Below, in pieces: positions 4,482-42,012 of a stretch of 64,000 nucleotides of DNA; position 1 is the first letter of the stretch; every line of letters begins with the position of its first letter. The notes below the pieces were generated by a model. The model saw only the letters and a program-made list of their open reading frames with translations, was not told the DNA's origin and searched no databases. The stretch spans positions 1-64,000 of the forward strand of contig JASLQF010000029.1 in assembly GCA_030744625.1 (NCBI GenBank), written 5' to 3'. The translations under genes and the position numbers were made by a program. Source of the DNA: Rhodospirillales bacterium (GTDB taxonomy: Bacteria > Pseudomonadota > Alphaproteobacteria > Rhodospirillales > JASLQF01).

Positions 4482-5261
4482 CTAGGTCAGATACATACCG
4501 TCGGGGTCGATTTCGTTAAGGATGCGCAGCTCTTCGGTGGTGGGGGGCTCGGTGACCCCGATCTTGTCGGGAAGGATGGGCTCGAAGCCGGTGTTCTCGA
4601 TCACGTCGGCGACTTCCACGCCTACGTGCAGGGCTTCCAGCTTCATGCGCTTCGTCTCCTCGTCGAAGCCCATGATGCAGAGGTCGGTGATGACCTTGTG
4701 CATGGAGCCGGTGATGAGGCCCGAATCGCGCCGGGTGGTGCCGCCGTCCAGGTAGCCCGGGCTGGTCACGAAATCGACTTTTTCGACGAAACGCTTCTTC
4801 TCGTGCGGCATGGCGACGATCATCCGCGCCAGGCTGGCGATATCGTTGCCGCCACCGCTACCCGGCAGCCTGATCTTAGGATCGGCCGGGTCGCCGATGA
4901 ACGAGCTGTTGAGGTTGCCGTACTGGTCGACCTGGGCGCCGCCCATGAAGCCGTAGTCCACGTAGCCGCGCTGCAAGAGGGCCAGCACGTCGGTCGGCGA
5001 GGGCACCATGTTGGCCATGCGCGAGGTGCGCGCCTCGTTGGTCGACGGCGGCAGCTTGCCGGATTCGATATAGGGTCCGACGACACCGCCCTCGAACAGG
5101 ATGGTCAGGTGCGGCGCGTGCATGCGCTGCGCCAGGGTCGCCGCCAGCAACGGGATGCCGACGCCGGCGAACAGGAGGGTGCCGTCCTCGAGGATGCGCG
5201 AGCTCATGACCGAGAGCAGCTCGGCCGTCGAGCATTTCGACTTGGTCACCGTATCAGTCAC
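4482..5261 (-). CDS. CoA-transferase subunit B (glutaconate CoA-transferase-like)
   Basis: LFAGVGIPLLAATLAQRMHAPHLTILFEGGVVG...GSGGGNDIASLA. Confidence 0.85.
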   Translation of the reverse strand: MTDTVTKSKCSTAELLSVMSSRILEDGTLLFAGVGIPLLAATLAQRMHAPHLTILFEGGVVGPYIESGKLPPSTNEARTSRMANMVPSPTDVLALLQRGYVDYGFMGGAQVDQYGNLNSSFIGDPADPKIRLPGSGGGNDIASLARMIVAMPHEKKRFVEKVDFVTSPGYLDGGTTRRDSGLITGSMHKVITDLCIMGFDEETKRMKLEALHVGVEVADVIENTGFEPILPDKIGVTEPPTTEELRILNEIDPDGMYLT

Positions 5262-6234
5262 TGTACAGCCTCCTTCCCGCTTTCGTCGCCTCGATGATAC
5301 CGGAGAAACCCAGGCGGTTCAGGAAATCGTTCCAGTCCTCGGGACCGTAAACGTATTCCTGGAGGTACTCGTTGGCGCCCTCGATGCCTTTCTCGCGGGT
5401 CAGCTTGGCGTAATAGTCCATGTGCGAGTAATAGGGCTCGTAGAGGCCCGAGCACTCGTGCGGCATGCAGCCGTAGGGCACCTCGACCACGGCTTCCACG
5501 GCGAAAAAAGGTATCTTGGTCTGGTCCGGGGCGCGCCGGATCTGGTCGTTGGAGATGATCTGCTCACAGGTCAGGATCACCTTGTCGGCGGCCAGGGCCA
5601 GGTCGGCCTCCATGAACGGCAGGCCGTCGTACTGGGCGTTGCCGTAAGCGTCGGCGCGATGGACGTGGATGAGCGCCACATCCGGGTTGAGCGCCGGCAG
5701 CAGGGCCAGCTTTTCGCCGGTGTAGGGACAGTCCATCTCCTTGATGTCGTCGGCCACCAGGCGCGCCATGTCCGAGCCCATCATCACGCGGGTCGGCATG
5801 AAGGGCAGGCCGAGGGCCCCGGCCCGGTACATCATGCCGATGCTCATGTGGCTCCACTCGTCGTAGCGCACGGCGCCCGACTCCATGAAGTGGCGCATCA
5901 CCTTGGAGACACCCCACACGATGCCCTGGCTGAACCAGCTCGTGATGTAATGCTCGGTACAGCCGCCGGCAAGGAGCATGTCGCCCTCGGACGAAGTGAT
6001 GTTGCGCGAAACGGTCAGGTTCTTTTTCTTTTGCCGCACCACCTCCCACACCGCCGCGAACGGGGTGCGCGAGAAGGTGTTGCCGCCGATCGCCATGTGG
6101 TCGCCGTCGTTGACGAGGCTTATGGCGTCGGTGAGGCTCATCACCTTTTCGCGCAGCCCACGGTCGCGGGCCTGCATGCGTTCGCGCAAATCCAGGTAGG
6201 ATGTGCCGCCCATTACATTCGAAGAAGCCGTCAT
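5254..6234 (-). CDS. CoA-transferase subunit A
   Basis: MSLTDAISLVNDGDHMAIGGNTFSRTPFAAVWEVVRQ...; internal start with upstream AAGG-type RBS. Confidence 0.82.
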   Translation of the reverse strand: MTASSNVMGGTSYLDLRERMQARDRGLREKVMSLTDAISLVNDGDHMAIGGNTFSRTPFAAVWEVVRQKKKNLTVSRNITSSEGDMLLAGGCTEHYITSWFSQGIVWGVSKVMRHFMESGAVRYDEWSHMSIGMMYRAGALGLPFMPTRVMMGSDMARLVADDIKEMDCPYTGEKLALLPALNPDVALIHVHRADAYGNAQYDGLPFMEADLALAADKVILTCEQIISNDQIRRAPDQTKIPFFAVEAVVEVPYGCMPHECSGLYEPYYSHMDYYAKLTREKGIEGANEYLQEYVYGPEDWNDFLNRLGFSGIIEATKAGRRLYSD

Positions 6235-6437
6235 CTTGTCGTTACCTTTGCGGTTTAGCCGTTCGCGGCGCGCACCGCCACGGGACCAGGGTGTGTATTC
6301 ATAAACCATAGGTTTGTCCACGGCCATATTGCAGACCCTTGGGGGGGGCGGCCTCGCATTTGCATTCATTCACGTCCTTGCCGCGACGTGTCTGATATAT
6401 TGGTTCTTAACCGCCATGAGATGACGAGGCCGCGACC

Positions 6438-7631
6438 ATGACATACGTTCCGGCGTCCGACGCCTTGAAGGGCATCACGGTTCTCGACCTCACCCGGGTG
6501 CGGTCGGGGCCGACGTGCGTGCGCCAGTTGGCCGACTGGGGCGCCGACGCCATCAGGATCGAGCCGCCCGAGGCGATCGAGCCCGACGGCGCCCTCGGCG
6601 CCCGGCGCCACACGGCGGATTTCCAGAATCTGCAACGCAACAAGCGCTCCCTCACCTTGAACCTGAAGGAAGCCGACGGCCGCGCCATCATGATGCGCCT
6701 GGTGGAGACGGCGGACGTCGTCGTCGAGAATTTCCGCCCCGACGTGAAGGCTCGCCTGGGCGTCGAATACGAACAGCTCTCGGCCGTCAATCCGGCCATC
6801 GTGCTCGGCAGCATTTCCGGTTTCGGCCAGGACGGGCCGTACGCCAGGCGCCCCGGCTTCGATCAGATTGCCCAGGGCATGGGCGGGCTGATGTCGATCA
6901 CCGGGGAGGCGGGGCGCGGGCCCATGCGCGTCGGCATACCGGTCGCCGATCTGACCGCCGGATTGTTCTGCGCCATGGGGATTCTGGTGGCCCTGATCGA
7001 GCGCGCCGGTTCCGGCAAGGGCCAGTGGATACAGACCTCGTTGCTGCAGGCGCAGGCCTTCATGCTCGATTTCCAGGCCGCCCGTTACCTGATGGAAGGC
7101 GTCGTCCCGGGGCAGGCCGGCAACGACCACCCGACATCGTTTCCGACCAGCGTATTTCCGACCAGCGACGGTCACATCAATATCGGCGCCGCCGGCGAAG
7201 TCATTTGGAGGCGGTTGTGCGAGGCTCTGAATACCGTTGAATGGGTGTCCGATCGGCGCTTCGAAGCCAACGACAAGCGCTCCCAAAACCGCGTTGAACT
7301 GCACGCCTTGATCAGTGAGCGGACGAAGCGGAAGTCCAGCGCCGAATGGCTTTCCATCTTCGCCGACGCCGGTGTTCCGTCGGGGCCGATCTACGACATG
7401 GAGGGATTGTTCGCCGACCCGCAGGTGCAACACCTAGGCGTAGCCGAGGCCATCGACACCTCATGTTTCGGCGAAACCCGGATGATGGCCCAGCCTTTTG
7501 CCCTCAGCCGCACGCCGAGCCGCCTCGCCGTGGCGCCTCCCGAACGGGGCCAGCAGACCGACGAAATCCTCGCCGCGCTCGGCATCTCGGACGACGAAAT
7601 CAAGGACCTCAGGGCGCGCCGCATCATCTAA
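6438..7631 (+). CDS. CaiB/BaiF family CoA-transferase
   Basis: LKGITVLDLTRVRSGPTCVRQLADWGADAIRIEPP...NKRSLTLNLKEADG. Confidence 0.9.
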   Translation: MTYVPASDALKGITVLDLTRVRSGPTCVRQLADWGADAIRIEPPEAIEPDGALGARRHTADFQNLQRNKRSLTLNLKEADGRAIMMRLVETADVVVENFRPDVKARLGVEYEQLSAVNPAIVLGSISGFGQDGPYARRPGFDQIAQGMGGLMSITGEAGRGPMRVGIPVADLTAGLFCAMGILVALIERAGSGKGQWIQTSLLQAQAFMLDFQAARYLMEGVVPGQAGNDHPTSFPTSVFPTSDGHINIGAAGEVIWRRLCEALNTVEWVSDRRFEANDKRSQNRVELHALISERTKRKSSAEWLSIFADAGVPSGPIYDMEGLFADPQVQHLGVAEAIDTSCFGETRMMAQPFALSRTPSRLAVAPPERGQQTDEILAALGISDDEIKDLRARRII

Positions 7632-13659: not shown

Positions 13660-15552
13660 TTAGTCCGGCAGGCCCAGGCGACGCAGGACGGCCAGACCGC
13701 TCTCGCTCGCCTCTTTGTTCCTATTGAGGCTGCTACGTCTCATATGCGTCACCGTAATCGTGGAGTCGGCGTCGACGGCCTCGGTCACCGCGGCCCGTGC
13801 CGCGTCGTCTTGCCCGAGGGTGTGGTAGGCGCGCGCCCGGCCGAGGTGGGCATGCGCGGCATGCTTACCCGACGGCTCGCGTTCCAGGAATTTCGCGAAG
13901 GCGGCAAGCGCCTCCCCGGGCTGTTCGGCATCGAGGTAGGCGAAGCCCAGTTCCTCGAGAAACCAAGCCGGATAATAGGGGCTCAGGCGCATCGCCCTCT
14001 TCATTTTGCGGATGCCTTCTTTCGGTCGGCCCGCGTTGTGGAGAAACAAGGCGAGAAGCGCCGTGATGGTGGCATGGTTGGGACTGAGGGCGACGGCCTT
14101 CTCGCCGGACGCCACGGCGGCTTCGTGTCGTCTCTGGTAAAGGTGGATGGCACCCCGCAGCGCGTGGACATCGGGCAGTTCGTCGTCCACGGCGCGCGCC
14201 TTTTCGGCCAGGAACGCGGCGCGCTCGAACGACAGAGCCGGATGATCGCTCCATCCGTACTGGGCGTCGAACCAGTGGGTCCAGGCGAGCAGGGCCCAGG
14301 CCAGGGCGTAACCGCGGTCGGCCTTGATGGCCTCGTTGAATAATTGGCGGGCCCGCGCGTTGCCCGTTTTGTCGCGGCGGTAAAAATGCTCGATTCCCCG
14401 GGCAAGTAGGTTCCAGGCCTCCAGGTTGCGTGTGTGCTTGCGGTGGACGCGCATCTGCTCGCCGTCGGTGAGCTTGATTTGCAGGGCGGTGACGATGTGC
14501 TCCGTGATTTCATCCTGCAGGTCGAACAGGTCGGTCATCTTGCGGTCGTACCGTTCGCCCCACAGGTGGTTGCCGCTCAGGGCGTCGATGAGTTGGGCGT
14601 GGATTCGCACCTTGTCGCCTGACTTCTGGATACTGCCCTCGAGCACGAAGCGGACGCCGAGGTCGGCGGCCACCTTTTGCACCTTCACCGGCTTGCCTTT
14701 GTAAGTGAAGGACGAGTTGCGGGCGATGACGAACAGGTTGGAGGCCTGTGACAGGGCCATGATGATGTTCTCGGTGATGCCGTCGCCAAGATGGTCCTGA
14801 TTCGCGTCCCGGCTCAGGTTGTCGAAGGGCAAGACGGCGATGGAGGGCTTATCCGGCAGCGGGAAGGCCATGCTCTCGATGGACGCCGGCTCGACGTCCG
14901 GGCGCGTGAACTGCCACCAGGCAACGCCGCCGGCCCCCGCCAGCAGCACCAACACGCCTACCACGGCCGCCCACCGCCGGGACGAAGACGGGGCTTCGAG
15001 CGCCGGCGCGGTCTCCGCCCTTTTCCCCAGCAGCACCCGGTAGACGCGGACAGGCGTCGACAGGTGCTTGACCGTTTGCGCGCCCATGTCCTCGATGGCC
15101 AGGCCGACGCGCTTGTGGACCTGGTCGTGGACGGCACCCGAGATGCAGATGCCGCCGGGCTCGGCAAGGGCCTCCAGCCGAGCCGCAATGTTCACCCCGT
15201 CGCCATAGATGTCCTCTTCGTCGACGGTGATATCGCCCAGGTTCACGCCCATCCGGAAGTCCATGCGCCGCTCGGTGGGAACCCCGGCGTTGCGCTTTCC
15301 AAGCTCGGTCTGGATGGTGACCGCGCACGCGACCGCGTCCAGCACGGTCGAGAACTCGGCCAGGAAACCGTCGCCCGTGTGTTTGACGATGCGCCCGCCG
15401 TGCTCGGCAATCCGCGGGTCGATGACCTCTTTGCGCGCCGACCACCAGGCTTCCAGGGTCGCCTGCTCGTCCGCCTCCATCAAGCGGGTGTAGCCAGCTA
15501 CGTCGGCGGCGAGGATCGCCGCGAGCCTGCGCTCGACCCCTTGTTCGGGCAT
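13660..15552 (-). CDS. Class III adenylate/guanylate cyclase domain protein with TolB-like/TPR C-terminus
   Basis: RRLAAILAADVAGYTRLMEADE...GDGFLAEFSTVLDAVACAVTIQ...IAVLPFDNLSRDANQDHLGDGITENII...TPR region; start at MPEQGVE. Confidence 0.88.
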   Translation of the reverse strand: MPEQGVERRLAAILAADVAGYTRLMEADEQATLEAWWSARKEVIDPRIAEHGGRIVKHTGDGFLAEFSTVLDAVACAVTIQTELGKRNAGVPTERRMDFRMGVNLGDITVDEEDIYGDGVNIAARLEALAEPGGICISGAVHDQVHKRVGLAIEDMGAQTVKHLSTPVRVYRVLLGKRAETAPALEAPSSSRRWAAVVGVLVLLAGAGGVAWWQFTRPDVEPASIESMAFPLPDKPSIAVLPFDNLSRDANQDHLGDGITENIIMALSQASNLFVIARNSSFTYKGKPVKVQKVAADLGVRFVLEGSIQKSGDKVRIHAQLIDALSGNHLWGERYDRKMTDLFDLQDEITEHIVTALQIKLTDGEQMRVHRKHTRNLEAWNLLARGIEHFYRRDKTGNARARQLFNEAIKADRGYALAWALLAWTHWFDAQYGWSDHPALSFERAAFLAEKARAVDDELPDVHALRGAIHLYQRRHEAAVASGEKAVALSPNHATITALLALFLHNAGRPKEGIRKMKRAMRLSPYYPAWFLEELGFAYLDAEQPGEALAAFAKFLEREPSGKHAAHAHLGRARAYHTLGQDDAARAAVTEAVDADSTITVTHMRRSSLNRNKEASESGLAVLRRLGLPD

Positions 15553-15809
15553 GAGAAGCCTTCCACGCAACCCAACAGGCCCGGCCCCACCTCCCGCAGG
15601 CCAGCCCACACATTGCCGGCGCTCGTGCTCTGCCGGGAGTGAGCACCCTAGGGACGCGGAGACTCGGCTACCTTGATTTGCATCAACTATTTTCCTGGGT
15701 TGAATGGAACTCGGTTGCCGTCGCAATAAGTCCAGCGGCAAGGGGATTATGCCCTTTCCGCAACCCCCAGCCCCCGTCGCTCCGCAACGAAGCGGTTGAC
15801 TCGCCCCCA

Positions 15810-15830
15810 TAAGTAAGAGAATAATTATTT
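15810..15830. promoter_or_regulatory. Candidate TetR operator, copy 2 (TAAGTAAG-N7-TTATTT)
   Basis: TAAGTAAGAGAATAATTATTT, ~50 bp upstream of the 15881 start codon. Confidence 0.55.
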
Positions 15831-15880
15831 ACGGCGTCGCCCCGCGGTTCGGGAATTGCACAATCGAGCGCGCTTGGAAA

Positions 15881-17122
15881 ATGAAAAAGATCGACCACCT
15901 GGCCTGTGTCACCTGCTCCAAGACGTACGGCGTTGACGACGTCGATTACGTCTGCCCGGACTGCGGCCTCGATCGCGGCACCCTCGACGTCATCTACGAC
16001 TACGAGGCCATCCGTCCCCGCCTCACCAGGCGCCACCTGGCCGACAGCACCGAGGCCTCGCAATGGCGCTACTGGGAGATCCTGCCCCTTTCCAGGCGCG
16101 AGCTGTGCCCCCCCTTGCGCATCGGCTGGACGCCCCTATACCGGGCCGACCGGCTGGAGCGCGAGCTCGGCCTGAAGTGCCTGTGGTTGAAGGACGACAC
16201 CGGCAATCCATCGGCGTCGCTCAAGGACCGGGCCAGCGTCATGGCCGCCGTGCGCGCCAAGGAGCTGGGCAAGGACGCGGTGGCCGGGGCGTCGACCGGG
16301 AACGCCGCGACGTCGATGGCCTGCGTCTCCGCCTACTTGGGCCTCAAGCCCTACATCTTCGTGCCCGAACGGGCGCCCAAGGCCAAGGTCGCCCAGTTGC
16401 TGGTCTATGGGGCCACGGTGATCATGGTCAGGGGAAGCTACGACCAGTGCTTCGGCCTGGCCTGGGAGGCCAGTCAAAGATGGGGCTGGTACAGCCGCAA
16501 CACGGCGGTCAATCCTTTCCTCGGCGAGGGCAAGAAGACCGCCGCCCTGGAGATCTGCGAGCAACTCGAGTGGGAGGTGCCGGACAAGGTCTTTTGCTCG
16601 GTCGGCGACGGCTGCATCTTCGGCGGCTTGCACAAGGGGTTTGTCGACTTCCACCGCCTCGGGCTGATCGACCGCGTCCCCCAGCTCATCGGCGTCCAGG
16701 CGGCGGGCGCGGCACCGTTGGTCGAGGCTTTCGAAAAGGGCTGGCCGGAAATCAAGCCGCAACAGGCCGAGACGCTCGCCGACAGCATCTGCGTCGGATA
16801 TCCGCGCGACCAGATCAAGGCCCTGCGCGCGGCGCGCCACACCGGCGGCGGCTTCATGGCGGTCACGGACGAGGAAATTCTCGCCGCCCAGCGAAGGGTG
16901 GCGCGCGCCACCGGCGTGTTCGCCGAGCCGGCGGGGGTGACCGCCATCGCCGGGGTCATTAAGATGAAGGAGGCGGGGGATCTGGATGGGGCTGAGCGGG
17001 TGGTCGCCCTGGTTACCGGACACGGCCTCAAGGACATCGATTCGGCCCTCAAGGCGGCCCAGGGCGCGCCCATCATGGTCGAGCCCGACATCGAGGACAT
17101 CGCCGCCAAGCTGGCCGCCTGA
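15881..17122 (+). CDS. Threonine synthase-like PLP-dependent enzyme with N-terminal zinc ribbon
   Basis: CVTCSKTYGVDDVDYVCPDCGLD zinc ribbon; GNPSASLKDRASVMAA PLP lysine motif. Confidence 0.88.
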   Translation: MKKIDHLACVTCSKTYGVDDVDYVCPDCGLDRGTLDVIYDYEAIRPRLTRRHLADSTEASQWRYWEILPLSRRELCPPLRIGWTPLYRADRLERELGLKCLWLKDDTGNPSASLKDRASVMAAVRAKELGKDAVAGASTGNAATSMACVSAYLGLKPYIFVPERAPKAKVAQLLVYGATVIMVRGSYDQCFGLAWEASQRWGWYSRNTAVNPFLGEGKKTAALEICEQLEWEVPDKVFCSVGDGCIFGGLHKGFVDFHRLGLIDRVPQLIGVQAAGAAPLVEAFEKGWPEIKPQQAETLADSICVGYPRDQIKALRAARHTGGGFMAVTDEEILAAQRRVARATGVFAEPAGVTAIAGVIKMKEAGDLDGAERVVALVTGHGLKDIDSALKAAQGAPIMVEPDIEDIAAKLAA

Positions 17123-27227: not shown

Positions 27228-27391
27228 CGGCCTGGAGCCGTCCCTCGCCCGAGGACATGACTCGCCCGCCGCTACCAACCATGTGCGGAACTCCGGCCGG
27301 GTGTTATAAATCCAAAATCGATACGGACAACCCAGGCTGCGCCTGGCTCCACTGTTGACCGGCGGGCCTCATTTCAAAGGAAACGGCAACC

Positions 27392-27781
27392 ATGAATAAA
27401 CTCGTCAACCCCAAGGCCGTGCACGCACCTCTCGGCGCCTACACTCACAGCATCAAGGTTCCGCGCGACGCTGAATGGCTGGTCGTTGCCGGCCAAGTCG
27501 GCATGAACGCCAAGGGCCAGGTTCTTGACGGCATCCGCAAGCAGGCGGAGCAGGCGTTCCGCAACATCCTGGCATGCCTGAAGGAGTGCGGAATGCGTAA
27601 GAAAGACCTCGTCAAGTTCAACGTGTACCTCACCGATTCGCGCCATATTGAACCGTATCGGGCGGCCCGCAAGAAGGTTATCGGAGACGCCACCCAGCCG
27701 GCTTCGACCTTGCTCGTTATCGACGGGCTCGCCTCGCCCGACCTGCTGATCGAGGTGGAAGCCTGGGCAGCCAAGGCGTAA
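27392..27781 (+). CDS. RidA family protein
   Basis: HAPLGAYTHSIKVPRDAEWLVVAGQVGMNAKGQVLDGIRKQAEQAFRNILACLKE. Confidence 0.88.
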   Translation: MNKLVNPKAVHAPLGAYTHSIKVPRDAEWLVVAGQVGMNAKGQVLDGIRKQAEQAFRNILACLKECGMRKKDLVKFNVYLTDSRHIEPYRAARKKVIGDATQPASTLLVIDGLASPDLLIEVEAWAAKA

Positions 27782-33098: not shown

Positions 33099-34286
33099 CT
33101 AACCCCCGGTCTCCGGGGCGCGACGCAGCAAAGCCAAACCGGGCAGCAGGCAGATCGCGGCCAGCACCCAGAAGGCCATGCGCAGGTCGCCGCCGGCCGA
33201 GGCGATGGCGCCGAACACCGCCGGTCCCACCGTCATGCCGGCGAAGGTGAAGAAGAGGACGCCGCCGGTGGCGTTCGCCGAGCGCTCCGGCGAGGTGACG
33301 CGCACCACCTCGGCCAGGTAGATGCCGTTCCAGCCCACCGCCGTCGCCCCGAAGGCGGCGGCGATGGCGGTAATGGCGGCCACCGGCCAGTGGCCGGTGA
33401 TCAGCGCCGTGACGCCCGCCGCCGCCGCCATGGCGAAGCCGAGCCAGGCCAACAGCCGGCGTGCCGTGACCAGGCGATCGGCGATGGCTCCCCAGGCAAG
33501 GCGCCCGGTGATGCCGGCGCCCTGGGCGACGGCCAGGGTCAGCCCGGCCTCGACGAGGCCGTACCCGACCTCGCCGACCAGATAGACCACGAGATAGGTG
33601 CCGAGGCAGATCTGGGCGGCGGAAAAGGACAGCGAGACCAGGCCGAGCTGGCGCAACACCGGGGTCCGGACGACCGTCAGCAGCGGCCCGGCCAGGCTGC
33701 CGGCGAGGCTGATCGGGCCCGCCCGGCGATCGCTGTCGAGAGCGCCGCGCAAGGGCTGCAGGGCAAGCGCCGTGGCGACGCCGAGCAGCGCCACGGCGAG
33801 TGCCGCGCCGCGCCAGCCGAGCGCGCCGTGCAGGGCGGGCAGCAGGAGCCCGGCCAGGGCGCCGCCGATGGGCACGCTGGTCTGCTTGAAGGAGAACACA
33901 AAGGGCCGCGAGGCGGGCGTCGTGACGCGGGCCAGCATGTGGGTTGAGCCTGGCGTCATCGGCCCGTAGCCGAGGCCCACCACCATACCGCCCAGCGCCG
34001 CCAAGGGCAGCGACGCCGTCGCCGTCAGGGCCATGCCGGCGGCGGCGCACAACAGGCACGCCTGGGTCACGCGGATGGCGCCAAAGCGCTCGACCACGGG
34101 GCCGGCGGCGAGGGCCGAAAACATGGCGGTCAGGAACAAGATCGTCGTGAAGGCGCCGACATCGGCCGGCGCGATTCCAAGATCGGGGGCCGCGACCACG
34201 GCCAGCACCGGCGGCGTCAAGGCGCACACGCCGACGACAACCTGCGCCCCCAGGGTGGCGGCGAGCGGTTTGACGACAGCTTTCAC
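33099..34286 (-). CDS. MFS transporter
   Basis: 12-TM pattern; FAAGPVVERFGAIRVTQA. Confidence 0.88.
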   Translation of the reverse strand: MKAVVKPLAATLGAQVVVGVCALTPPVLAVVAAPDLGIAPADVGAFTTILFLTAMFSALAAGPVVERFGAIRVTQACLLCAAAGMALTATASLPLAALGGMVVGLGYGPMTPGSTHMLARVTTPASRPFVFSFKQTSVPIGGALAGLLLPALHGALGWRGAALAVALLGVATALALQPLRGALDSDRRAGPISLAGSLAGPLLTVVRTPVLRQLGLVSLSFSAAQICLGTYLVVYLVGEVGYGLVEAGLTLAVAQGAGITGRLAWGAIADRLVTARRLLAWLGFAMAAAAGVTALITGHWPVAAITAIAAAFGATAVGWNGIYLAEVVRVTSPERSANATGGVLFFTFAGMTVGPAVFGAIASAGGDLRMAFWVLAAICLLPGLALLRRAPETGG

Positions 34287-34645: not shown

Positions 34646-35323
34646 CTATTCCGCCGCCGCCGGTTTTGCCGGGCGCGCCGTGCCGGCTCCCCAGATGTCC
34701 ATGACCTCGGCGCACGTCGTCACCAGGCCGAAGCGCGCATCGACGGTGGTCAGGGTGGAGGCGTGCAGGTCCATGTTCCACGACGCGACGCCGTCCTCGG
34801 GCACGCAGACATAGTAGTTGTATTCGAAGGCGTCGCGCAGCGTGCTCTCCACGCAGACGTTGGTGGAGACGCCGGTGGGCACCACGGTCTGGATGGAGTG
34901 GGCGCGCAGCATCATGTCGAGGTCGGTGCCCTTGAAGGCGCTGTAGCGGTGTTTCCTGATGACCAGCTCGCCGTCGGCGGGGCTGAGCTCGTCGATGAAC
35001 TCGGCGCCTTCCGTGCCGGCGATGGCGATCCTGTCGGAGGCATAGGTGGCGCGCCGGCGCTGCGCCAGCCACGGCCCCGAATCGCTCTCGTGGTCGGGCA
35101 GGGTCCAGAAGCCGACGTGGCAGACCAGGGCTTTCGCCGCCCGCGCCGCGGCCAGCAGCCCTTCGAGGCGCGGGATGATCGACTGGGCGGCGGCCAGCGG
35201 GCGCCCCGCCCTGGACGTGGCGAAGCCGTCGACGCAAAAGTCCTTCTGCATGTCGATGATGATCAGCGCCGCGCGCCCCGGCTCCAGGCGCTCGGCCAGG
35301 CTTTGCAGGATCGGCGGTTCCAT
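34646..35323 (-). CDS. Cysteine hydrolase (isochorismatase-like family)
   Basis: RAALIIIDMQKDFCVDGFA...VVPTGVSTNVCVESTLRDAFEYNYYVCVPEDGVAS. Confidence 0.9.
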   Translation of the reverse strand: MEPPILQSLAERLEPGRAALIIIDMQKDFCVDGFATSRAGRPLAAAQSIIPRLEGLLAAARAAKALVCHVGFWTLPDHESDSGPWLAQRRRATYASDRIAIAGTEGAEFIDELSPADGELVIRKHRYSAFKGTDLDMMLRAHSIQTVVPTGVSTNVCVESTLRDAFEYNYYVCVPEDGVASWNMDLHASTLTTVDARFGLVTTCAEVMDIWGAGTARPAKPAAAE

Positions 35324-35325
35324 GG

Positions 35326-36201
35326 CTATTCGCCTCCCTTGTCGGCCTCGACGAACCAGTCGGCGATCTGGCTGCCGGTCATGAAGACCACGTCGTCGCG
35401 CGCCATCAGCAGATCGAGCATGGCGGCCAGATAGCCGATGCGGTGCGGCACCCCGATCAGGTGCGGGTGCAGGCCGAGCGCCAGGACCCTGGGCTGGGAC
35501 GGCAATTCGCCGTCAAAGGTGGCGAGGGTCGCCTCGAGGCGCTCGTACATTTCCGGCGAGCTGTGTTTCTCCACGGCATAAAGGACGCTGTCGTTGATCT
35601 CCAGGTTGTAGGGCATGGCAATGAGGGGGCCGTGCTTGGTGGTCATCCAGCACGGCAGGTCGTCGACCACCCAGTCGCACACGTAGTCGATGCCCGCCGC
35701 CTTGAGGATGTCGGGCGTCTCGGCGCTTTCGCGCAAGCCCGGGCCGAGCCAGCCGCGCGGAGCCGTGCCGGTGAAGCCGGAGACCTTGTCGAGGGCCTGG
35801 GTGACCAGGGCCGCCTCGTCGGCCTCGGCGTCGAGGGCGCGCTGGTGGAAGCCGTGGCCGATGAACTCCCAGCCGGCGTCCAACATGGCCTCGGCGGCGG
35901 CCGGGTGGGCGTCGATGACGCCGGCGTTCAAGGCGGTGGAGGCCGGCAGCCCGCGCTCGGCGAGCAGGCCCAGGATGCGCGGCATGCCGGCGCGCATGCC
36001 GTATTCGGCCCACGAGAAGTTGGGGATGTCGGGGACGCTGTCGAAGCCGTGCGGCCCGGGGATGATCTTGCGCGGCATGGGCTGGTCGAAGCGCCAGTGC
36101 TCGACGTTGAGCACGACGTGGACCATGAGCGGCTTGCCGTCCGGCGGCGCCAGCTTCTTGCGCCGGTTCGACATCTCATAGGGAATGCGCGGGTTTGACA
36201 T
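35326..36201 (-). CDS. Polysaccharide deacetylase family protein
   Basis: VNVEHWRFDQPMPRKIIPGPHGFDSVPDIPNFSWAEYGMRAGMPRILGLLAERGLPASTALNAGVIDAHP. Confidence 0.85.
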   Translation of the reverse strand: MSNPRIPYEMSNRRKKLAPPDGKPLMVHVVLNVEHWRFDQPMPRKIIPGPHGFDSVPDIPNFSWAEYGMRAGMPRILGLLAERGLPASTALNAGVIDAHPAAAEAMLDAGWEFIGHGFHQRALDAEADEAALVTQALDKVSGFTGTAPRGWLGPGLRESAETPDILKAAGIDYVCDWVVDDLPCWMTTKHGPLIAMPYNLEINDSVLYAVEKHSSPEMYERLEATLATFDGELPSQPRVLALGLHPHLIGVPHRIGYLAAMLDLLMARDDVVFMTGSQIADWFVEADKGGE

Positions 36202-36268: not shown

Positions 36269-36291
36269 AATGATGACATTTTGTCATCATT
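36269..36291. promoter_or_regulatory. Perfect 10-bp inverted repeat, candidate operator
   Basis: AATGATGACA-TTT-TGTCATCATT, ~70-90 bp upstream of the deacetylase start. Confidence 0.5.
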
Positions 36292-36736
36292 TGTCACCCC
36301 CTTGCGGTTCGTCCATGGTGGGGGCAGCGGCGGGCGGCTCGTTGTCTCCCGAGGCGCGCAGGCGCTCGTTGACCGAGGGCATGAGGCCGGCGAGCCGCGC
36401 CTGGATCTCCACGGTGCGCGCCGCCGCCACGTAGTGGCGGTCCTCGATGGCCCGGTTGTAGATGTTCTCCAGCTTGCCGAGGAGCACGCCGGTTTCCCGG
36501 CAGCCGTCCTCGGCCATGCCCCGGCGGATGGCGGCGACGCGCGCCGCTATGGCTGGGATACGCAGCAGCCGGTGGCCCTGCTGGCGGGCCGAGGCCGCCT
36601 CGTAGCCGGCCTCGCGGGCGGCGTTGGAGGCGTTGGGGAAGTAGACGTAGGAGTGGCAGAACACCTCCTGGCGGGGGGAAAGCGGGGTGGCGCTCGGGGA
36701 AAGGGACGCGGTGCGGAGGGAGGTCATGACGGTCAT
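36287..36736 (-). CDS. Phage terminase small subunit-like protein (orphan)
   Basis: LSPRQEVFCHSYVYFPNASNAAREAGYEAASARQQGHRLLRIPAIAARVAAIRRG; start at MTVMTSL assumed. Confidence 0.6.
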   Translation of the reverse strand: MTVMTSLRTASLSPSATPLSPRQEVFCHSYVYFPNASNAAREAGYEAASARQQGHRLLRIPAIAARVAAIRRGMAEDGCRETGVLLGKLENIYNRAIEDRHYVAAARTVEIQARLAGLMPSVNERLRASGDNEPPAAAPTMDEPQGGDK

Positions 36737-36822
36737 TCCTGTTGTCGGGCCTGCTTGGGGGAAAAACAGGAATGAAGACCACGGAACGCCGGAAATGTCA
36801 AGAACAAATAGAGAACATTCTT

Positions 36823-36846
36823 GAAAAAAAAGGGGCCGTCCCCTTT
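36823..36846 (-). terminator. Rho-independent terminator after the minus-strand CoA-transferase gene
   Basis: Minus strand AAAAGGGG-ACGG-CCCCTTTTTTTT (8-bp stem and U tract), 60 bp after the stop at 36906. Confidence 0.7.
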
Positions 36847-36905
36847 TGCGCCGCCGTCCGCATTCTATCGGCAGCCCACCGGGAGGCACCAGATGCCGCC
36901 CACGC

Positions 36906-38111
36906 TCAAATCACCTCATCGGCTCTCAGAGCCGTAATCTCGTCGCCACTGAGACCGGCCAGCTCGGTCAGCACCGCGTCCGTATCGGCGCCGAGGACGG
37001 GCGGCGGCGCCTGCGCCGCGGCCGGTGTGTCCGAGAACGTGTAGGGGATGCCGAGGATGCGGATAGCCCCGGCGGTCGGGTGATGCATCTCGATAACCAT
37101 GTCGTTGGCCCTGGTCTGCTCGCTCTCGAGGACTTCGTCGACATGGTTCACCTTGCTGCAGGGGATGCCTTCGGCTTCGAGAACCCGGGTCCACTCCTGT
37201 GCTGAGTCCGCCGACAGGGCAGCGATGATGAGGCCGTCGATCTCGGCGCGGTTGGTGACCCGCGCGGCGTTGGTCTTGAAGCGCGAATCATCGGCCCATT
37301 CGGGGTGGCCGACGAGCCGCGCGAAGCGGGCAAACTGCGCATCGTTGCCCACCGCGAGCGCGATCTCGCCCTCGCCGCAGACATAGTCCCTGTAAGGGAC
37401 GATGTTGGGGTGGCCGTTACCGTAGCGGCCGGGCCGGGTGCCTTCGATCAAGTAATTCGAGGCGACATTGATCAGCATCGAGAGCGACGTGTCGTAGAGA
37501 GAGAGGTCGAGCCGCTGGCCGCGGCCGGTGCGCTGGCGAGCGTGCAAGGCGGCGAGGATGCACATGGCGGCGTACTGGCCGGTGCAAAAGTCGACGATGG
37601 CGACGCCGAGCTTGGCCGGTTCGCCGGCTGCCTCGCCGGAGATGCTCATCAGTCCGCTTTCGGCCTGGAGCAGGAAGTCGTAGCCCGGCATGCCGCCCTT
37701 GGGCCCCTTGGCGCCATAGCCGGTGATGGCACAGTGCACCACGCGCGGCGCGTGCTCGGCCATCCATTGGTCGGTGAAGCCCCAGCGATCGAGCGTGCCG
37801 GGCTTGAAATTCTCGATCAGCACGTCGGCGTCTTTTAACAATGTGCGCAACAGGTCCTTTCCACGCTCGTCTCTTAAATTGATGGTGACGCTTCGCTTGT
37901 TGCGGTTGATGCCGAGAAAATACGCCGCTTCGCCGCCCGCGAACGGCGGGCCCCAGCCACGGGTGTCATCGCCGTGCCCGGGGTGCTCGATCTTGATGAT
38001 CTCGGCACCCATGTCGCCGAGGTTCATGGTGCAGAAGGGACCGGCAAGGATGCGGGTGAGATCGATCACCCGAATACCGGCGAGCGCACCTTCGGATGCC
38101 GTCTCGTTCAT
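36906..38111 (-). CDS. CaiB/BaiF family CoA-transferase
   Basis: LAGIRVIDLTRILAGPFCTMNLGDMGAEIIKIEHPGHGDDTRGWGPPF. Confidence 0.92.
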   Translation of the reverse strand: MNETASEGALAGIRVIDLTRILAGPFCTMNLGDMGAEIIKIEHPGHGDDTRGWGPPFAGGEAAYFLGINRNKRSVTINLRDERGKDLLRTLLKDADVLIENFKPGTLDRWGFTDQWMAEHAPRVVHCAITGYGAKGPKGGMPGYDFLLQAESGLMSISGEAAGEPAKLGVAIVDFCTGQYAAMCILAALHARQRTGRGQRLDLSLYDTSLSMLINVASNYLIEGTRPGRYGNGHPNIVPYRDYVCGEGEIALAVGNDAQFARFARLVGHPEWADDSRFKTNAARVTNRAEIDGLIIAALSADSAQEWTRVLEAEGIPCSKVNHVDEVLESEQTRANDMVIEMHHPTAGAIRILGIPYTFSDTPAAAQAPPPVLGADTDAVLTELAGLSGDEITALRADEVI

Positions 38112-38114
38112 GGT

Positions 38115-38984
38115 TCAGGCCTTCGGCGGTGCACGGTTGCGGTCGTAGGCCAAGTCTTCCAGATACCGCTCGACCTTTTCCTTGCGCTCGCGGCGGAATT
38201 TCTGGAAGTCGGGTTCGCGCTTCTCAAGGAACGCATTCATGCCCTCGAGCGATTCCTCCGAGCCCCAGATCTCGGCCAGCAATTCCATGCCCTGTTGCCA
38301 CGATGCATAGAGCTGGTCCGATTCGAAGTTGAGAGATTTCTTGGTCGCACGGATGGTTTGGCCGGAGTAGCCTTTGATTTGCTGACACCACGCTTCGGTC
38401 TGCTCGCGAAGGCGTGCTTTAGGCACCACCTTGTTGATGAGCCCGATCTCGACCGCTTCCTCGGCCGAGAAGGTGCGACACAGGAAGATCATCTCTTTCG
38501 CCAGGCGATCGCCGATCAATCGCGGAATGTACTGCGTCGCACCGACGGTCGGGCAGGCGCCGACTCGCGCGCCGGTCTGGCCGAAGCGCCCGTCGTCGGC
38601 GGAGATCACGAGATCGCACCACAGGGCAATCTCGTGCCCACCGCCCATGCAGTGGCCGTGGACCATGGCGATGACCGGGATCGGCACGCCGCGGATGGCC
38701 ATGGCGAGACCGAGCATGCGGTCGTTCCAGTGCACGGCATTTGCCCGGTTGAGCTTCATCATGGCGTGAAAATCGCCACCGGCCGAGAATGCTTTGTCGC
38801 CGGCGCCGGTGATCACCGCGGCGACCAGCGACGGATCCTCGCGCGTCGATCTGATCGCCGCGGTGAGCTCGTCCAGGGTTTGCTCGCGAAATGCGTTCAG
38901 CACATCGGGCCGGTTGATGGTGATCCAGGCGACGTCGTCCTTCGCCTCGAAAAGAATTTCCTTGTAGTTCCGTTCAAGAGTCAC
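38115..38984 (-). CDS. Enoyl-CoA hydratase/isomerase family protein
   Basis: VAAVITGAGDKAFSAGGDFHAMM...PVIAMVHGHCMGGGHEIALWCDLVISADDGRFGQ; GTG start. Confidence 0.9.
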   Translation of the reverse strand: MTLERNYKEILFEAKDDVAWITINRPDVLNAFREQTLDELTAAIRSTREDPSLVAAVITGAGDKAFSAGGDFHAMMKLNRANAVHWNDRMLGLAMAIRGVPIPVIAMVHGHCMGGGHEIALWCDLVISADDGRFGQTGARVGACPTVGATQYIPRLIGDRLAKEMIFLCRTFSAEEAVEIGLINKVVPKARLREQTEAWCQQIKGYSGQTIRATKKSLNFESDQLYASWQQGMELLAEIWGSEESLEGMNAFLEKREPDFQKFRRERKEKVERYLEDLAYDRNRAPPKA

Positions 38985-39143: not shown

Positions 39144-40391
39144 CTATGCCGTGACGTAGACGGCGTTCTGCGAGGCGCCCATGACCGCCACCGCTTCGAT
39201 TTCGAGCACCATGCAGTCCTGGGCGAGCCCGCCGATGGCGATCGTCATGGCCGGATAGGGCGCCGTGAAGAAGCGCGCGTACTCTTCGAGGAACGCCGGG
39301 ATCATCTGTGCCTCGGTGATTGTGACATTGGTCTTGACGATGTCGTCCATGGTGGCGCCGAGGGCGCGCATGGTGACGACGTGGTTCTCGAGTGTCTTAC
39401 GCGTCTGGGCGCGAATCTCGCTCCAGCCGATCATGATCCCCGGGGGCTCCCACGGGATCTGGCCGCACACGTAGGCGACGGCGCCGACCCGGACCGCGTG
39501 AGAATGCGGCGCCATCGCGCCGGGGAGCTCCGGCACGTAGATCGTGTCATCTCGCTTCTTGTTCGATAGATGCCCGATACCGGTCACGACCGATTCGATG
39601 GTGAGCCGGTCCGCGCCCTTGGCGGCCACCGCCTCGAACTCAAGCAGCCCGGCCTCGGTCGAAATCTCGCCTTGCACCGTGGCGCGGGCCGGGAACGGCT
39701 CGCGGAAGTACTTCGCGTAAATCTCGTTGTATCGCATGAAGCCGTACCAAGCCGGTACCGTGCAGTTCATCTTGACCACGTCGGCGAAGTCGAAGCCCGC
39801 GGCCGCCAGACAAACCCCGAGATTGTCAAGCGCCTGCTCGACCTGGCCGCGGATGTCGCCACGCGCAACCAGGGTGCCCTCGGCGTCGATCGACGGATGG
39901 GCATTGGAGAAAAAGAAGTCGCCGCCGGTCGTGCCGCCGGGCGCTATCGGGTGGTTGCCGAGTGGTGGTGAGGGCAGCTCGACCGGTTGCGGCAGACCAT
40001 CGACGCAAGCCGTCGCCTCCAGCTGAACGACCGCATCCCTGACCGGCAGGAACGCGCCGACGCAGGCGTGCGCGGGATAGGGTTCGGGCATCGCCTCGGC
40101 GTAAACCGACTGGTAGCGCTCGCGATGGCGGAGGTCAGTCATGTAACTCTTGACCTTGGTCACCTGGGCGAGCGAAACGTCGAGCGTTTCGAGCACGCTC
40201 GACATGCTCTGCACACAACGCGCCGATTGCGCCTCGACATCGGCGACTCCGGGCGAGGTGCCCACAATGGCGCCATCAGCCGCAAGCGGCAGCATGCCGG
40301 CGGTGAAGGCCCAGTCGCCCGCTTTGACCCCGTGACTGGAGGGACCCTGAACGGGCGGCAGATCGGAACGGACGAGGACCTCGCGCGCCAT
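39144..40391 (-). CDS. Triple-domain RidA family fusion protein
   Basis: Three tandem RidA-like units ending PYPAHACVGAFLPVRDAVVQLEATA, PFPARATVQGEISTEAGLLEFEAVA and PYPAMTIAIGGLAQDCMVLEIEAVA. Confidence 0.88.
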   Translation of the reverse strand: MAREVLVRSDLPPVQGPSSHGVKAGDWAFTAGMLPLAADGAIVGTSPGVADVEAQSARCVQSMSSVLETLDVSLAQVTKVKSYMTDLRHRERYQSVYAEAMPEPYPAHACVGAFLPVRDAVVQLEATACVDGLPQPVELPSPPLGNHPIAPGGTTGGDFFFSNAHPSIDAEGTLVARGDIRGQVEQALDNLGVCLAAAGFDFADVVKMNCTVPAWYGFMRYNEIYAKYFREPFPARATVQGEISTEAGLLEFEAVAAKGADRLTIESVVTGIGHLSNKKRDDTIYVPELPGAMAPHSHAVRVGAVAYVCGQIPWEPPGIMIGWSEIRAQTRKTLENHVVTMRALGATMDDIVKTNVTITEAQMIPAFLEEYARFFTAPYPAMTIAIGGLAQDCMVLEIEAVAVMGASQNAVYVTA

Positions 40392-41142: not shown

Positions 41143-42012
41143 CTATGGCACCCGACGCTTGCTGGCCCGGAACTTGATGCTGATGACCTTTCCTTCCACC
41201 GAAGCGATATCTTCCCTGGCCGGAACGGGGGTGAATTCCGGTCCCGGACAACACGCCATTCCCTCCAGTTCCGCCGGCTCCAGCGGGTGGCGTGCCACGA
41301 ACTCGACGGCGCCGAAGCCGGCGTCTTGAACGATTTGAAAATAGCGGTCCTCTTCGATTGCCCCGCCCACGCATCCCGCCCACGTCGATTGGAAGCGCTT
41401 TCGGACTTCGGAATCGATCTTCCCAGCATAGACGATGTCGGAAATAGCCAGGCGCCCGCCTGGTTTGAGTATGCGAAAGGCTTCGCGGTAGACGGCTTCC
41501 TTGTCGGGGCACAGGTTGATGACGCAGTTGGAGATCACCACGTCGGCGACGCCGTCGGCAAGCTCCACCCGCCCCAAGCCGCTGACGACGAACCCGGTCA
41601 TCTCCGTCAGGCCCGCCTCGGCCACCGTCTGCCTGGCGCGCTCGATCATGTGAGCGGAGAAATCCACGCCCACCACTTTTCCGCCAGCCCCCACCTTGTG
41701 GGCGGCGAGGACAACGTCGATCCCCGCGCCGCATCCCAAATCCACCACTGTCTCGCCCAATTGAAGATCAGCGAACCCCGTGGGGTTGCCGCAGCCTCGC
41801 GAAAGGGTGAAGGCGGTTTCGGGGACCAGCGAAAGCTCTTGCTGGCTGTAGAGGCCGTGCTCGGCGGCAAAGCTCGGACCGGCGGGTGTCTCACCGGCGC
41901 AGCACACCGCCCCCTCTCCACCGCCCCGCTCGGCGCATGCGTCGTAGCGGCCCTTGATGATGTCCTCGATGTTCTGCTCTGTCGTCATACTCGCCGCATC
42001 CTTTGCCGTCAT
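41143..42012 (-). CDS. arsM: Arsenite methyltransferase-like SAM-dependent enzyme
   Basis: GCGNPTGFADLQLGETVVDLGCGAGIDVVLAA...VISNCVINLCPDKEAVYREAFRILKPGGRLAISDIV...WAGCVGGAI. Confidence 0.82.
   Translation of the reverse strand: MTAKDAASMTTEQNIEDIIKGRYDACAERGGGEGAVCCAGETPAGPSFAAEHGLYSQQELSLVPETAFTLSRGCGNPTGFADLQLGETVVDLGCGAGIDVVLAAHKVGAGGKVVGVDFSAHMIERARQTVAEAGLTEMTGFVVSGLGRVELADGVADVVISNCVINLCPDKEAVYREAFRILKPGGRLAISDIVYAGKIDSEVRKRFQSTWAGCVGGAIEEDRYFQIVQDAGFGAVEFVARHPLEPAELEGMACCPGPEFTPVPAREDIASVEGKVISIKFRASKRRVP

Follow-up and report, generated by a model that had tools for sequence, protein, structure and literature searches.

A fused three-unit RidA protein from a Rhodospirillales bacterium that keeps the catalytic arginine only in its central unit

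What becomes of the active sites of a RidA homotrimer when three RidA units are joined in one chain? This question is raised by a gene in a 64,000-nucleotide stretch of a Rhodospirillales bacterium (contig JASLQF010000029.1, positions 1 to 64,000; hereafter the window), whose product had been read in a preliminary description as three RidA-like units with a single catalytic arginine. The gene (39144..40391) lies on the minus strand, which that description did not give, and is an intact ORF of 415 aa with an ATG start; a promoter and terminator scan found nothing. The protein matched PF01042 three times (E 6.5e-52, 175.1 bits vs a cut-off of 27.3) and TIGR00004 in three stretches (181.7 vs 106.25 bits). 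By these curated cut-offs it is a member of the Rid (YjgF/YER057c/UK114) family, and it consists of three tandem fused RidA units, the arrangement of a 3x-RidA. The three-unit architecture is not new because Niehaus et al. (2015) described three tandem RidA units under the name 3x-RidA, with the presumption that the chain forms a covalent trimer (PMC4433059); no later paper on 3x-RidA was found in the literature searched. The window protein resembles the 3x-RidA EF_0115 of Enterococcus faecalis (PMC4433059) in its three tandem units, its length (about 415-425 aa), and its presumed state as a covalent trimer.

All three units lie on the minus strand: unit 1 at 39999..40370 (about residues 8-131), unit 2 at 39615..39977 (about residues 139-259), and unit 3 at 39177..39536 (about residues 286-405), with 26%, 31%, and 32% identity to E. 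coli RidA, respectively. In the alignment with E. coli RidA, Arg105 corresponds to His108 in unit 1 (codon 40068-40070), Arg236 in unit 2 (39684-39686), and Met382 in unit 3 (39246-39248); the three minus-strand codons were confirmed by eye in the DNA. The catalytic arginine of a RidA-type imine hydrolase is therefore found at one of the three sites, in unit 2 only, as had been claimed. In TdcF, Asn88 orients Arg105, and a bond across the interface joins Glu120 to residue 107 (PMC1884159). Unit 1 of the window protein has Gln94 at the Asn88 position and Gln123 at the Glu120 position, and unit 3 has Leu368 at the Asn88 position but keeps Glu397 and a conserved PHSH loop (His296, His298). Unit 2 retains Asn222 at the Asn88 position together with Arg236 and Thr238, so that Asn88 survives in this unit only. 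The possibility that units 1 or 3 are not RidA was ruled out, since PF01042 matched all three, and no arginine was seen beside the Arg105 site of unit 1 or unit 3 in the alignment. Because no arginine adjoins either site, neither of the two findings named beforehand as telling against the preliminary description was made. Its picture of one canonical and two altered sites fits the sequence. An assembly error at Met382 was also ruled out, because the same Met occurs in the independent genome of Pseudorhodoplanes L017.

The orthologues form a graded series. Written as the residues at the Arg105 position in units 1, 2, and 3, the Rokubacteria protein L018 (52% identity to the window protein) is R/R/R, the Pseudorhodoplanes protein L017 (62%) is R/R/M, and the window protein is H/R/M, giving three, two, and one arginine. 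Asn88 is present in all three units of the Rokubacteria protein and in unit 2 only of the Pseudorhodoplanes protein. Between the window protein and L017, identity was 41% in unit 1, 79% in unit 2, and 75% in unit 3, and unit 1 is the least conserved of the three; the loss of both its Asn88 and its Glu120 equivalent suggests decay. The change of Glu120 to Gln in unit 1 was found in the same two proteins, window and L017, as the change of Arg to Met in unit 3. This covariation, seen in few sequences, suggests that the Arg of each unit faces the Glu of the next and therefore that Arg236 may stand opposite unit 3. The high identity of units 2 and 3 to L017 agrees with this placement, as does the PH[S/A]H motif of unit 3 (PYVQ in E. 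coli RidA), which is conserved across the clade, down to relatives of 33% identity, and was absent from the single Rid proteins collected. A wider search of 385 genomes from the class and 399 from the phylum gave no further orthologue, with at most four candidates scored in most of them.

Structure prediction had been proposed as a check, and the AlphaFold2 model, computed from an input of 22 three-unit proteins with two rows from plasmid records left out, is one compact chain (mean pLDDT 91.5, pTM 0.92) in which the secondary-structure pattern is repeated three times. Solved single RidA chains matched one unit each (about 125 residues, TM-score by target mostly 0.8-0.92), and each unit is accordingly modeled with the RidA fold. 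The only whole-length matches among solved chains were chorismatases (about 370 columns, TM-score by target 0.62-0.67). Together with the confidence of the model, this match gives some support to a putative covalent pseudo-trimer. Chorismatases (PDB 5ag3, 5a3k, and 4bps) thus stand alone among solved single chains in sharing the arrangement over the whole length, but they have just 12-16% identity to the window protein in the structural alignment and their chemistry is different, the catalytic Glu being Glu334 in Hyg5 (PMC7170507). No chorismatase was found among the 53 PDB sequence hits of the window protein.

A survey of three-domain RidA proteins, also proposed beforehand, yielded 76 distinct three-unit proteins, of which 58 are R/R/R; the window protein thus differs from other 3x-RidA proteins, which mostly keep all three arginines. 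On the tree, unit 1 has seven maximal clades without Arg, unit 3 has three, and unit 2 has two, and one clade of each unit is the same protein, Rokubacteria L056, which has no Arg at all. These counts are small and rough because Vibrionaceae dominate the sample (a 3x-RidA occurs in about 36% of the sampled Vibrionaceae genomes), and they point to recurrent but uneven loss, unit 1 having lost its Arg independently about seven times, unit 3 three times, and unit 2 twice. The unit 1 replacements across lineages (H, A, E, K, C, and Y) follow no pattern. A rule that the central Arg is always kept was rejected: unit 2 has lost its Arg alone once, in the Vibrionaceae protein L118 (R/Q/R), and L056 lacks it too. 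Vibrio mediterranei and two close relatives are Y/R/L, and because they sit in the other clade, the lone central Arg has arisen at least twice, these Vibrio proteins having reached it independently of the window protein. According to Niehaus et al. (2015), Ser replaces Arg in about 10% of RidA proteins, and Rid4-Rid7 are without it (PMC4433059).

In the single-unit tree, the window clade, the Vibrio/Enterococcus clade, and two Rokubacteria proteins stand apart, on deep branches that are weakly supported; this separation points to what are apparently at least four independent triplications. The units of the window clade group by position and apart from those of the Vibrio/Enterococcus 3x-RidA proteins, which apparently stem from a separate triplication. 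A viral or plasmid origin was rejected, as no viral relative was found and no plasmid match to P0001 reached E 1e-25, the weaker plasmid matches being other Rid proteins. Several other multi-unit proteins were recorded. The three-unit Rid of Rokubacteria L043 (1075-2400), whose units are mutually 73-78% identical and all read PPRTT, is a recent triplication. That of Rokubacteria L056 (5359-7734) is A/S/S at the Arg position, with an amidohydrolase gene just downstream and crotonase genes nearby. Pseudorhodoplanes L057 has two multi-unit Rid proteins (5164-6585 and 15057-16505; 473 and 482 aa) without Arg at the catalytic position in any aligned unit, and the second gene is followed by a CoA-transferase-like and an acyl-CoA dehydrogenase-like stretch.

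The neighborhood of the window gene was as first described, with an enoyl-CoA hydratase-family and a family III CoA-transferase gene beside it and no PLP enzyme among the neighbors scanned (33.1-47 kb). Downstream on the minus strand lie a crotonase-family gene (enoyl-CoA hydratase/MenB/BadI-like, 38115..38984) and, 3 bases further, a CaiB-type (family III) CoA-transferase (36906..38111). These are followed on the same strand by a polysaccharide-deacetylase-fold amidohydrolase (35326..36201; PuuE-like, below the PuuE cut-off), an isochorismatase-fold hydrolase (34646..35323; RutB/biuret amidohydrolase-like, below the cut-offs of those families), and an MFS transporter (33099..34286). A 200-aa ORF similar to Terminase_2 (36287-36889, minus strand; phage terminase small subunit PF03592, 46 bits) stands alone within this otherwise metabolic gene row. 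Upstream, also on the minus strand, is a methyltransferase-domain gene (41143-42012), whose product, at a guess, may be an arsenite methyltransferase. Elsewhere in the window, a single-unit Rid protein that has Ser for Arg105 (27359-27781, plus strand) neighbors FMN-dependent dehydrogenase, 3-hydroxyisobutyrate-dehydrogenase-like, and polyamine-type ABC transporter genes. In Pseudorhodoplanes L017, an orthologous crotonase (68%) adjoins the 3x-RidA gene in divergent orientation, and further neighbors are a two-subunit CoA-transferase, a branched-chain amino acid type ABC transporter, and a second 3x-RidA. The latter (14079-15314), with 25% identity to the window protein, lies downstream of the branched-chain-type transporter genes. 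In the other three genomes with relatives, the best crotonase matches had only 32-37% identity. A pathway role in the breakdown of a nitrogen-containing compound is plausible.

The reading that we prefer, and to which we give roughly an even chance, is that of a catabolic deaminase of enamines and imines, built as a RidA trimer fused into a single chain of which just one site still works. One active site per chain is probable because two of the three units lack the catalytic Arg, and it probably lies at the unit 2/unit 3 interface. There, Asn222, Arg236, and Thr238 of unit 2 would bind the carboxylate of the substrate, with the pocket closed by the opposing loops of unit 3 (His296, His298, Gly310, and Glu397); the remaining two interfaces would be structural only, their sites having decayed. 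The substrate would be an unsaturated amino acid or imine from the breakdown of a nitrogen-containing compound, its carbon skeleton then being processed by the adjacent CoA-transferase and crotonase. The window protein shares the fold of the RidA/TdcF homotrimer and, in unit 2, its Asn88-Arg105-Thr/Cys107 set, whereas it differs in being one chain, in having lost two of three arginines, and in carrying His at the Tyr17 position of unit 3. Counted in favor of such a single-site deaminase were the three PF01042 units, the confidence of the model, the stepwise loss of Arg, and the crotonase neighbor in L017. Precedents exist within the family, in catabolic deaminases that resemble RutC and AmnE: the 2-aminomuconate deaminase AmnE and RutC each serve one catabolic pathway, and their solved structures match. 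Unlike the window protein, both are homo-oligomers of single-unit chains, AmnE pairing two trimers into a hexamer (PMC6742747), and the window protein did not reach the NCBIfam RutC equivalog cut-off (113.9 vs 169.1 bits). Against this reading, the crotonase pairing was seen in two genomes, with the opposite gene orientation in the second, and the 33%-identity relatives (L109) lie beside other genes, namely DUF1989, peptidase, and amino-acid transporter genes. The literature searched contained no activity measurement for any 3x-RidA.

A generic damage-control RidA, a stable fused trimer acting on many imines for which one site suffices and the CoA genes are incidental, is rather unlikely, although 3x-RidA genes do occur in unrelated contexts: beside agmatine deiminase/carbamoyl-phosphate genes on a Vibrio plasmid, beside a PLP aminotransferase and ornithine cyclodeaminase in Enterococcus, and with the peptidase and transporters of the Xanthobacteraceae relatives. 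An ornithine-cyclodeaminase-like gene also lies 7 kb from the 3x-RidA gene in the window. However, there are 13 other PF01042 matches in the genome already, the closest orthologue likewise has this crotonase beside it, and the unit 3 loop is specialized. A new reaction on the pseudo-trimeric fold, other than imine deamination, would accord with the whole-length chorismatase matches and with the proposed origin of AtzD from concatenated YjgF units (PMC3758960), but we consider it improbable: Arg236, Asn222, and Thr238 keep a RidA site, and there is no sequence relation to chorismatases or the AtzD family. The cyanuric acid hydrolases AtzD/TrzD (Toblerone fold) differ in placing catalytic Ser-Lys pairs in a repurposed central barrel (PMC3758960), and in Pfam the window protein matched PF01042 only, not the AtzD profile. 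Just as improbable is that the altered sites are functional, with His108/Cys110 of unit 1 and Met382 of unit 3 binding a second ligand or regulating the canonical site. The protein is intact, its outer units are retained, and the unit 3 Met is common to Pseudorhodoplanes; yet the unit 1 replacements are patternless, unit 1 is the least conserved, and the Asn88 and Glu120 equivalents are lost along with Arg. The new ligand specificity suggested at the outset is thus unsupported, unit 1 diverging fast, and while the observation behind the preliminary description was confirmed, its interpretation was partly supported.

What is newly added is the pattern of site loss, which proceeds by grades among the orthologues, recurs in separate clades, and falls mainly on unit 1. 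We tentatively consider, as possible but somewhat doubtful, that fused RidA trimers repeatedly shed sites, mostly in unit 1, with two unrelated clades ending with the central Arg only, and that this could be a route to chorismatase-like single-site pseudo-trimers. The orthologues of one fused trimer provide a natural graded series of three, two, and one catalytic arginine, joined by a second, independent case in Vibrio. This series makes the question of how a symmetric oligomer becomes an asymmetric single-site enzyme directly testable with a few expressed proteins.
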